Source: Deltaproteobacteria bacterium (GTDB lineage Bacteria; Desulfobacterota; Desulfarculia; Desulfarculales; Desulfarculaceae). Taken from it: a DNA stretch of 64,000 nucleotides. Below the pieces are notes generated by a model. That model did no database searches and was not told the origin of the DNA. It saw only the letters and a program-made list of their open reading frames with translations. The first letter of the stretch is position 1. Every line of letters starts with the position of its first letter. The stretch covers positions 1-64,000 of the forward strand of contig JAJZPI010000002.1 in NCBI GenBank assembly GCA_021811275.1, in the 5' to 3' direction. The translations under genes and the position numbers were made by a program. Of the stretch, positions 55,857-64,000 are shown piece after piece.

Positions 55857-58097
55857 TCACCTGGCCGGAGCCTCGACTTGAGCTTGGCCGGGCATCTCCG
55901 GGGCGGCGTAGGCCTTCTGGCCCGTGGCCAGAAGCCGGTCGGCCTCGCGGTTGAAGTTGACCAGCCGTTTCTTGCACTCGTAAAAACCGTGCCACCAGGC
56001 GTAGTCCGGGGCCATCATGGCCGCGCCCATGCGCGCCCGCCGGCCCTCGTGGTGCCACAGCTCGTAGAACTCGGTTAACAGCGGGGTCCTGAAGAACGAC
56101 CCCGGATCGACGAGGCCCTTGGCCGTCAGCTCGTCCAGCTTGGCCTTGGCCGGCCGGTAGTAGACCCGGTTGTATTCCTCCACCACCTGGTCGAGCTTGG
56201 CGAAGTGGTCGTCCACCCAGGAGCGGCCGTGGCAGTTCAGGCAGACCGCGCCCATGGCCGCCCGCTCGGTGCGCCAGTCGGTCTTGGCGGGCCAGGGCGC
56301 GAAGTCCTGGGGTCTCACGGTCAGCGGGGCCTGCAACTCCCAGCTCAGCCGGCGGGTGACGTCGTGGCTGCCCGCGACCTGGCCTGCGGCGGAGATGTGG
56401 CAGGCCGCGCAGGTGGGCGCGCGATAATCCTGGCCCGGCCGCCAGAGCCCCGGCGGGGCGGCGAAGTTCCATTCCTGGTTTTCGGCGGCATGGATGGCCC
56501 CGTGCTTGGACTCGGCGTAGATCTCCTTCTGGGGGTGGTCCGGGCCCAGGTGGCATTGGCCGCAGGCCTCGGGCTTGCGCGCCTCGGCCACGCTGAACAG
56601 ATGCCCGGTGTGGCAGGCGGCGCAGGAGCCCTTGCTGCCGTCGGGGTTTAGCCTACCCACCCCCTGGTTGGGCCAGGTCAGGGGGGCGGGCTTGCCGTCC
56701 TTGAACCCCACCGCCGTGCCGTGGCAGTGGTAGCAGCCGCTGGCCCTCTCCAGTTCGCTGTTCAGCCCGGCCTGGAGCCAGGGGTCGATCTTCCACATGA
56801 TGTCCCAGGTCTGGGCGTGCTTGCTCGCCGCGAACTCGACCGCCTGGCGCGGATGGCAGCGGGCGCAGTCGGCCGGGCTTACCAGGGCCTTGACCGGTAG
56901 GCGGTACTCGGCCTTGGCCCAGGGCGAGCCCCCCTGCTCGTAGATCTTGTCGTGGATCGGGCTGCGGGCGGGGTCGTCCTTGGCGGCTTGGTGGCAGTGC
57001 AGGCAGCTCACCCCGGCGCGGGCATGCTGGCTGCCGATCCACTCGGCGTGCTTGGCCGGGGTGGCGGTGGCGTGGCAGCCCAGGCAAGAGGGGGCCAGGT
57101 CAACCCGCCAGGTGGGCGCGGCCTGGACCAGGGCCGGGCCCCAGCGCCACCAGGCCAGGCAGATGAGCACCACGCCGATGCAGACCAGGGCCGAGTAGGT
57201 CAGCACCACGAAGAGGCGGGCCACCAGCGGGGGCGGTGACTCTTCCCCGCCGGGCTTGGGCGCCGGCCCCAGCTTCGGCACCCGCTGGAGCACCTCGGGG
57301 CCGTGGGGCGCGGCGGCCAGGGCCTCGCTCAAATCTTGGCCGGCCTGGTGGCGTCCCATGTGTTTGCCGTTCTTCCAAAGCTTGCTGGCCCCGACGTCGT
57401 AGAGCAGGCCCTGGACGGCCACGTGGGCCGGACGTCCTTCCTGGCCGTCGGCTTCAGCCAGGAGGTCGGGGCCGGACCGGCCCCCGGCCTGGATGGCCCC
57501 GGCCTCCTTGAGCTTGCGGTTGATGTAGCCGGTGGTGGTGATGGCGATGCCCAGCATGACCAGGAAGGCCCCCACCTTGACCAGCCAGACGATGCCGAAG
57601 GTGGTGGTCCACAGCTCGGCGAGTGAATGCAGGCGCAGAATGCTGAGGCCGACGCCGGTGAGCCCCACGGTCACGACGCAGGTCAGGCCCAGGATGCGCT
57701 CGCCCCTGGGCAGCCCGCCGGTAAGCGAGCGCGGCCCGATGAACAGGTGCACGTAGAAGATGGAGCCGAACCAGAGCACCCCGGCCGCCACATGCAGCAG
57801 GCCCAACCCGAACCAGGCGCCCTGCCGCCAGGCCACGGGCTGGCCCTGGGGGGGCGGGACGAAGCCGGCGTCGCGGAAGTCCTGGCCGCGCCGGGTGAGG
57901 GTGCCTCCGCCTTCGGGGCTTTCGTGGCAGGCGGCGCAGGAAAGGCTGGTCTGGGCGGAAAAGGCCGGTGTGGCCCAAGCCGGAGCGGGGGCCGCCAGCC
58001 ACAGGGCGAGGAGTCCCAGCGCCATCACGGCCCAAAGGGCGCGGGCGCGCGTGGGGCCCCGGCCGGGCCGGGGGCGCGCTGAAGCTGCCTGTCTCAT
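55857..58097 (-). CDS. Nine-CXXCH fusion cytochrome: CopD-like membrane domain + cytochrome b5-like domain + HAO-like octaheme module
   Basis: CXXCH at residues 54, 338, 365, 411, 455, 492, 512, 563, 619; b5-like VAVQGLLYDVGASKLWKNGKHMGRHQAGQDLSEALAAAPHG; C-terminal APDYAWWHGFYE. Confidence 0.82.
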   Translation of the reverse strand: MRQAASARPRPGRGPTRARALWAVMALGLLALWLAAPAPAWATPAFSAQTSLSCAACHESPEGGGTLTRRGQDFRDAGFVPPPQGQPVAWRQGAWFGLGLLHVAAGVLWFGSIFYVHLFIGPRSLTGGLPRGERILGLTCVVTVGLTGVGLSILRLHSLAELWTTTFGIVWLVKVGAFLVMLGIAITTTGYINRKLKEAGAIQAGGRSGPDLLAEADGQEGRPAHVAVQGLLYDVGASKLWKNGKHMGRHQAGQDLSEALAAAPHGPEVLQRVPKLGPAPKPGGEESPPPLVARLFVVLTYSALVCIGVVLICLAWWRWGPALVQAAPTWRVDLAPSCLGCHATATPAKHAEWIGSQHARAGVSCLHCHQAAKDDPARSPIHDKIYEQGGSPWAKAEYRLPVKALVSPADCARCHPRQAVEFAASKHAQTWDIMWKIDPWLQAGLNSELERASGCYHCHGTAVGFKDGKPAPLTWPNQGVGRLNPDGSKGSCAACHTGHLFSVAEARKPEACGQCHLGPDHPQKEIYAESKHGAIHAAENQEWNFAAPPGLWRPGQDYRAPTCAACHISAAGQVAGSHDVTRRLSWELQAPLTVRPQDFAPWPAKTDWRTERAAMGAVCLNCHGRSWVDDHFAKLDQVVEEYNRVYYRPAKAKLDELTAKGLVDPGSFFRTPLLTEFYELWHHEGRRARMGAAMMAPDYAWWHGFYECKKRLVNFNREADRLLATGQKAYAAPEMPGQAQVEAPAR

Positions 58098-63212: not shown

Positions 63213-63315
63213 GCCCGCCGAGCGCGCACGATCCGGGATGTCGGGCCAAACCACGCTTTGGCCCGGCAAGCATTCAAAGCCATGGATGGCTTTGAATGAT
63301 GCAACTTGGCATCAG
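63213..63315. repeat. Family-1 repeat, modules 3 and 4
   Basis: GTCGGGCCAAACCACGCTTTGGCCCGGC; CATTCAAAGCCATGGATGGCTTTGAATG; ACTTGGCATCAG. Confidence 0.83.
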
Positions 63316-64000
63316 ATTGAAAGGCGTTTCATGATTTCCAGCGGGTTGAGCACGGTGATCTCGCGCCCGCTGACGTTGATCAAGCCCTCCTGCTGAAGGC
63401 TCTTCATGATCTCGCTTACGGTCTGCTGGCAGGAGCCGGTCAGCGAGGCGATGTGCTCCTGGGTCAGCCGCATGGGAACCGCCACCGGTTTGTCCCAGTC
63501 GCCCTCGCGCTCGCCGGCCAGCTGGGAGAAGCACAGGTAGATGAGGGCCTTGAGCAGCCGAGTGGGCGCGTCCAGGACCATGACGTTTTCCAGCACCTCG
63601 TTCATGTAGCGCAGGCGGCGGCCCAGCACCTCGATTACTCGCCGGGCCAGGGGGTAGTGGGCGGCCAGCAGGTGCTCGAAGTCGGCGCCCTTGATCCGGT
63701 GCACCACCGACTCGCTGATGGCCCGGGCGTTGCACTTGCGCTCCCGCCCGCCCAGCACCTCGGCCAGGCCGAAAATCTCTCCCGGCTGGCGCACGCTCAT
63801 GATGGGCTCCTTGCCCTCCGAGGAGGTGCGGAAGATCAGCACCGTGCCCCGCTCCAGGTAGTAGGCCTGATCGCCGGGCTCGCTCTCCAGGAAGATGAAA
63901 CTGTTGCGCTTGTAGCAGAGGCGCTCGGCCAGGGCCAGGAAGGCCCGCTTCTCCTGCTCCAGGCCCAGGAAGAAATCCTGCTCGCTCAGGTGCCAGTGGG
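63312..64000 (-). CDS. Crp/Fnr family transcriptional regulator (5' end beyond window)
   Basis: In-frame reading upstream of the ORF-track start gives WHLSEQDFFLGLEQEKRAFLALAERLCYKRNSFIFLESEPGDQAYYLERGTVLIF; HTH LTQEHIASLTGSCQQTVSEIMKSLQQEGLI. Confidence 0.9.
   Translation of the reverse strand, partial: HWHLSEQDFFLGLEQEKRAFLALAERLCYKRNSFIFLESEPGDQAYYLERGTVLIFRTSSEGKEPIMSVRQPGEIFGLAEVLGGRERKCNARAISESVVHRIKGADFEHLLAAHYPLARRVIEVLGRRLRYMNEVLENVMVLDAPTRLLKALIYLCFSQLAGEREGDWDKPVAVPMRLTQEHIASLTGSCQQTVSEIMKSLQQEGLINVSGREITVLNPLEIMKRLSI

Follow-up and report, generated by a model that had tools for sequence, protein, structure and literature searches.

The window, a stretch of 64,000 nucleotides from a bacterium of the family Desulfarculaceae that was analysed as a whole, encodes a cytochrome in which a hydroxylamine oxidoreductase (HAO)-family octaheme is joined within one chain to a membrane module composed of a single c heme, a CopD-like bundle of transmembrane helices and a cytochrome b5-like domain. 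Its fold, its architecture, the recurrence of the fusion in other genomes and the pattern of missing NrfH-type genes are well supported, and the protein is best read as an HAO-type octaheme that would work reductively and carry its own electron donor. An earlier note on this DNA had proposed an octaheme tethered to the membrane and connected to it by a b5/CopD module of its own, and this stands as the best reading of the protein.

A single gene with nine heme motifs

The gene is one minus-strand open reading frame (Table 1) at the coordinates of the earlier note, which named no strand. Nine CXXCH motifs are present, at residues 54, 338, 365, 411, 455, 492, 512, 563 and 619, which agrees with the count and order given there (one at residue 54, then eight). 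Shuffled versions of the protein carry 0.02 such motifs on average and two at most (20,000 shuffles). The C-terminal segment that had been singled out, APDYAWWHGFYE, is likewise present in the fused protein.

Dipeptide-type permeases and an MFS gene flank the fused gene, and no nitrogen gene adjoins it among the window neighbours scored with Pfam. Upstream, a search for a regulator site returned nothing beyond uninformative inverted repeats. A gene for a Crp/Fnr-family regulator lies roughly 5 kb from the fused gene (window positions 63312–63998, minus strand).

Table 1 Coordinates of the fused cytochrome gene, its parts and related gene clusters
Feature	Position	Strand	Remarks
Whole fused cytochrome gene	55857..58097	minus	746 aa plus stop; uninterrupted ORF, like architecture in other genomes
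Signal peptide, residues 1–42	57972..58097	minus	hydrophobic core 20–38; APAPAWA/TP site judged by eye
N-terminal monoheme c site, C54AACH58	57924..57938	minus	unchanged in all 21 aligned modules, fused or free
TM1–TM3 (98–116, 135–153, 168–186), CopD-like	57540..57806	minus	hydropathy, AlphaFold, Pfam
Cytochrome b5-like domain, residues 213–277	57267..57461	minus	invariant H246, H250, H265; predicted cytoplasmic
TM4, residues 295–313	57159..57215	minus	hydropathy, AlphaFold
HAO-family octaheme module, residues 335–746	55860..57095	minus	sequence profile and fold matches
Heme 1–3 region, residues 350–422	56832..57050	minus	fused-specific F350H, R357Q, I363V, D367H, D417R
Octaheme motif 4, C455YHCH459	56721..56735	minus	expected active-site heme by motif order
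D520-H521	56535..56540	minus	counterpart of HAO Asp-His pair (D267-H268, chain numbering)
W702-H703	55989..55994	minus	position of HAO cross-linking Tyr467; no Tyr
nrfH, nrfA, monoheme cytochrome c, stand-alone HAO-type octaheme and cupin, in a row	L135 (contig C39) 71–4497	minus	
Free c/CopD/b5 module plus shorter HAO-family octaheme	L131 7414–9615; L132 272–2655; L133 776–3055; L134 7976–10296		

The octaheme lacks the cross-linking tyrosine

The eight C-terminal motifs follow the HAO order, and the assignment of this part to the HAO/octaheme family, proposed in the earlier note, is borne out by both sequence and fold. The fused protein matches PF13447 (Multi-haem_cyto) with 92 bits, which exceeds the Pfam cut-off. 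A profile search with the octaheme returned 4QO5 first (E 5e-59) and 6H5L second (E 3e-34), and Foldseek gave the same two structures in the same order (1.8e-9 and 2.2e-8). MccA matched the octaheme fold with an E value of 2.5 only, and the hydrazine dehydrogenase model NF052343 (NCBIfam) scored 65 bits against a curated cut-off of 900. Membership in a non-HAO multiheme family (MccA, NrfA or MtrC-like), the outcome that the note had named as fatal to its proposal, is ruled out by profile, fold and scores.

Active-site residues are retained. In HAO-type octahemes the active-site heme is heme 4 (PMC12758564); D520 and H521 are kept in all 12 complete fused copies, and H358, H382, H427, H499, H532, H578 and H682/H683 are kept in every fused row, with the pairing of individual histidines to individual octaheme hemes being putative.

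By contrast, the cross-linking Tyr of oxidative HAO/HDH (P460), which the note had marked for checking, is absent from the aligned position in the window protein. Tyr467 of Nitrosomonas HAO (1FGJ, chain numbering confirmed) falls on W702 in an ungapped alignment and on H703 if one gap is allowed; in one fused copy, L025, the residue corresponding to H703 is Arg. Tyr-free HAOs are treated as reductive (PMC12758564; PMC3701875; HAOr in PMC12485887), and a reductive enzyme is therefore expected here.

The membrane module

CopD (PF05425) is matched by residues 136–202 of the window protein with 37.2 bits (cut-off 32.1), a match that does not imply a copper role. Hydropathy yields four helix cores (Table 1), with which the AlphaFold helices agree. 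Where four hydrophobic segments had been counted within about residues 94–190, both methods place three transmembrane helices; the further segment noted at about 292–316 is the fourth helix. The b5-like stretch described earlier gains from the match of residues 213–277 to a solved b5 chain (6nzx, E 2e-14), although the window protein scores below the Pfam threshold for Cyt-b5 (PF00173; 15.8 bits against 23.7). Free relatives of the module exceed that threshold, at 33.2 and 25.4 bits.

The structures closest to the b5 part are the archaeal proteins 6NZX, listed as a b5 domain protein from Hadesarchaea, and 6VZ6 (48% and 39% identity; Foldseek). Both were solved as b5 domains of some 76 residues and have no c heme, transmembrane bundle or octaheme. 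The AlphaFold model of the fused protein is of modest confidence (pLDDT 66). When the module was modelled alone, Foldseek matched only the b5 part and returned no membrane-fold match.

Twelve residues are invariant in 21 of 21 aligned modules: C54, C57, H58, H102, H117, E133, R155, K174, H246, H250, D255 and H265. H102 and H117, both in TM1, are the only conserved transmembrane histidines. Heme c is attached on the periplasmic side only, and the monoheme c site and the octaheme must therefore be periplasmic. Because four helices separate these two sites, three of them before the b5 domain, helix parity in the sequence predicts a cytoplasmic b5 domain, and the charges around the helices are consistent with this placement.

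The fusion recurs and the module also occurs free

The same fusion is found as a continuous open reading frame in about 15 other Desulfobacterota genomes, which rules out a unique or artefactual fusion. The earlier note had weighed whether such a protein might be both widespread and characterised. The recurrence is real; in the literature searched, with subscription papers largely outside it, we found neither the fusion nor a name for the module, and the fusion seems to be undescribed.

A phylum-wide search of 395 genomes, with open reading frames checked for the 30 loci retrieved, recovered the free module (roughly 300–370 aa) in about 40 genomes and the fused form in 10. Further fused cases outside that search are L006, L060, L072, G405 and G409, along with L074, of which the start only is present. 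In four loci (L131–L134) the free module adjoins another HAO-family octaheme, of 412–415 aa and a different subfamily; in L131 and L133 it immediately precedes that octaheme on the same strand. Tied to HAO-family octahemes by fusion and by neighbourhood, the combination of c heme, CopD-like bundle and b5 domain is a candidate electron-entry module, widespread in Desulfobacterota, for which we found no assigned function. The existence of free and fused forms makes the question of the donor directly testable.

The free modules in L106 and L113 adjoin, as judged by eye, an Fe-S oxidoreductase-like and a cytochrome b-like open reading frame, so other partners may also draw electrons from the module.

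NrfH-type genes are missing beside nine fused genes

A scan of contigs for relatives of the octaheme collected 80 loci, mostly from sulfate-reducing Desulfobacterota, in which the octaheme is about 58–65% identical and almost always a stand-alone protein of about 465 aa. A gene for an NrfH/NapC-type tetraheme protein (a PF03264 member, E 6e-36) lies directly upstream of the octaheme in 75 of the 80 loci (74 found by script, plus L025, where the start of the octaheme reading frame was over-extended), a count to be read with the conserved gene order of related loci in mind, which does not make each locus independent evidence. Among the five exceptions, three start less than 250 bases from a contig end, L006 is fused and L047 has no such gene.

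Near the fused genes of the window, L006 and L124–L130, no NrfH-type gene was found within reach, and genomes G260, G048 and G232 yielded no octaheme of this type other than the fused protein. Elsewhere the fused gene stands in tandem with an nrfH–octaheme pair (L025/L138, L060, L074, L123 and L072). Where a fused gene has no NrfH-type gene nearby, we infer that the fused module has taken over from the separate quinol dehydrogenase. In terms of the HaoA-type reverse-HURM octahemes, the window protein shares the lack of the Tyr, whereas an adjacent NapC/NrfH gene is not found in the window.

Altered residues around hemes 1–3

Fused and stand-alone octahemes differ at positions that are otherwise highly conserved. 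Position 367 is Asp in 81 of 81 stand-alone copies and in none of the 12 fused copies, in which it is His in one group and Lys or Thr in the other; position 363 is Ile in 80 of 81 stand-alone copies and again in none of the 12. At conserved columns, the changes specific to fused copies cluster in residues 335–422 (Fisher p 0.0006); the rows of this comparison are related rather than independent, yet the replacements differ between the two fused groups. This pattern in the alignment suggests that the residues near heme 2, or around hemes 1–3, form a rebuilt electron-entry face. The D367 signature offers a simple sequence test for distinguishing NrfH-fed from self-fed octahemes.

The organism's own stand-alone octaheme (L135 514–1959) carries H350 and V363 as in the fused form, yet keeps D367. 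It departs from 11 conserved columns, the most of any stand-alone copy.

Proposed function and rival explanations

The genome that carries the fused gene also holds, on contig C39, a stand-alone paralog 75% identical to the fused octaheme, located in an nrfHA cluster (Table 1) that contains the only NrfH/NapC protein found in this genome. Three hcp genes are present, and a search of the genome for NapA gave nothing above the cut-off. Across the 80 octaheme loci, hcp occurs in 17, against about 0.5 expected from two copies per 4 Mb. The reverse-HURM scheme of Nautilia profundicola (PMC3701875) comprises HaoA with the NapC/NrfH-type CycB, plus Hcp. Because of the nrfHA cluster and the hcp linkage, nitrite, hydroxylamine or NO chemistry is favoured over sulfur chemistry. 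Reductive chemistry on nitrogen or sulfur compounds had been raised as a possibility in the earlier note, and the reductive direction is favoured by the missing Tyr together with this linkage.

The protein is probably an HAO-family octaheme that is anchored in the membrane, lies on the periplasmic side and works reductively, with nitrite/hydroxylamine (or NO) as its most likely substrate. The module would collect electrons from menaquinol or from a cytoplasmic donor; these would travel from b5 through the transmembrane bundle, then to the monoheme c and on to hemes 1 and 2 of the octaheme, so that the module would stand in for a separate quinol dehydrogenase of the NrfH type. Reduction of the substrate would follow at heme 4, with D520 and H521. 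Speaking against this scheme, the c heme in the periplasm and the b5 in the cytoplasm would be too distant for direct transfer unless the membrane bundle carries hemes, for which only H102 and H117 are conserved. The lone setting of the fused gene, away from nitrogen genes, the lack of a NapA above the cut-off in this genome and the modest AlphaFold confidence also count against it. A more far-reaching form of the proposal, which we regard as tentative and on the doubtful side, is a single-chain transmembrane enzyme in which electrons from a cytoplasmic donor enter at the cytoplasmic b5, cross the membrane and reach an octaheme nitrite/hydroxylamine reductase in the periplasm; NrfH, and perhaps quinol too, would play no part. 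On this view the free module would serve Desulfobacterota octahemes generally, as an electron-entry device not described before.

Sulfur chemistry deserves consideration in an organism from a sulfate-reducing family. A sulfur role has been proposed for a Desulfobacterota HAO clade from vent sediments poor in oxidised nitrogen, with MccA and OTR cited as sulfur-chemistry precedents among related octahemes (PMC9213671). The module would in that case feed an octaheme that reduces sulfite, tetrathionate or polysulfide. This is unlikely given the organism's own paralog in an nrfHA cluster, the enrichment of hcp beside stand-alone octahemes and nearest structures that are of the HAO family, with MccA far behind. 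We consider it somewhat less likely still that the octaheme has no substrate of its own and serves as a non-catalytic conduit, relaying electrons from the membrane to periplasmic cytochromes or to a stand-alone octaheme or NrfA. Such a relay would fit the departure of fused copies at 5–25 conserved residues, compared with 11 or fewer in a stand-alone copy, and the fused gene does adjoin a stand-alone octaheme in several genomes; but the Asp-His pair and all heme-ligand histidines are kept in 12 of 12 fused copies, and no other octaheme of this type to be served was found in G260, G048 and G232. Finally, the HAO family includes oxidative enzymes, and a membrane module could reduce quinone with electrons from hydroxylamine (or hydrazine); the absent cross-link Tyr, the anaerobic lineage and the linkage to nrfHA and hcp make this direction very improbable.

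If the protein is a nitrite/hydroxylamine reductase, as we favour, the module represents a possible route feeding such reduction in sulfate-reducing lineages, for which the literature is divided between nitrogen and sulfur chemistry.

Relation to known systems

The reverse-HURM system of N. profundicola (PMC3701875) resembles the present case in its Tyr-free reductive HAO-family octaheme, its membrane electron donor and the presence of Hcp in the genome, but its donor is a separate tetraheme protein of the NapC/NrfH type, whereas here a module of one c heme, a CopD-like bundle and b5 is fused to the octaheme. The closest solved structure, IhOCC of Ignicoccus hospitalis (4QO5), is likewise a membrane-associated HAO-family octaheme; it is archaeal and, unlike the window protein, lacks a c/CopD/b5 module. 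HAOr of Kuenenia (Kustc0458/0457, 6H5L) is a Tyr-free member of the HAO family reported to reduce nitrite; its redox partner is a separate protein bound to it in a complex, and it has no fused membrane module. NrfHA, which the organism also possesses, is a multiheme nitrite reductase of the periplasm that receives its electrons from the membrane, but it consists of two chains, a pentaheme catalytic subunit and a tetraheme donor. The stand-alone octahemes of sulfate reducers (L007–L085) have a separate upstream NrfH-type donor and keep D367, I363, F350, R357 and D417.

Evolutionary history

In the tree of the N-terminal module, the window protein groups with the fused L006, L060, L025, L123 and L124 (100/99). 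A second fused group also contains one free module, which could be a later split. A clade uniting all fused modules is rejected (AU p 0.0017), which leaves simple vertical descent of every fusion from one event unsupported.

In the tree of the C-terminal part of the octaheme, the closest partner of the window protein is instead the stand-alone paralog of the same genome (100), and a fused group is rejected (AU p 9e-5). The trees of the two octaheme parts differ, although that of the N-terminal part is short and weak and is also compatible with pairing to the own paralog. Over its C-terminal two thirds (55860–56850), but not in its first 80 residues, the fused octaheme is unusually similar to L135 514–1959: identity to the paralog is 49% in residues 335–415 and 85–88% from residue 496 on, where other rows are about 55–77% identical to the window protein. 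Because identity to the paralog is high C-terminally and low in the first 80 residues, the sequences point to gene conversion that spared the entry face as the likely history. A fresh fusion within this genome is less likely than gene conversion, given the same difference in identity and the differing part trees.

Fused copies evolve faster than most stand-alone copies, and a changed or relaxed role of the fused copies is therefore possible.
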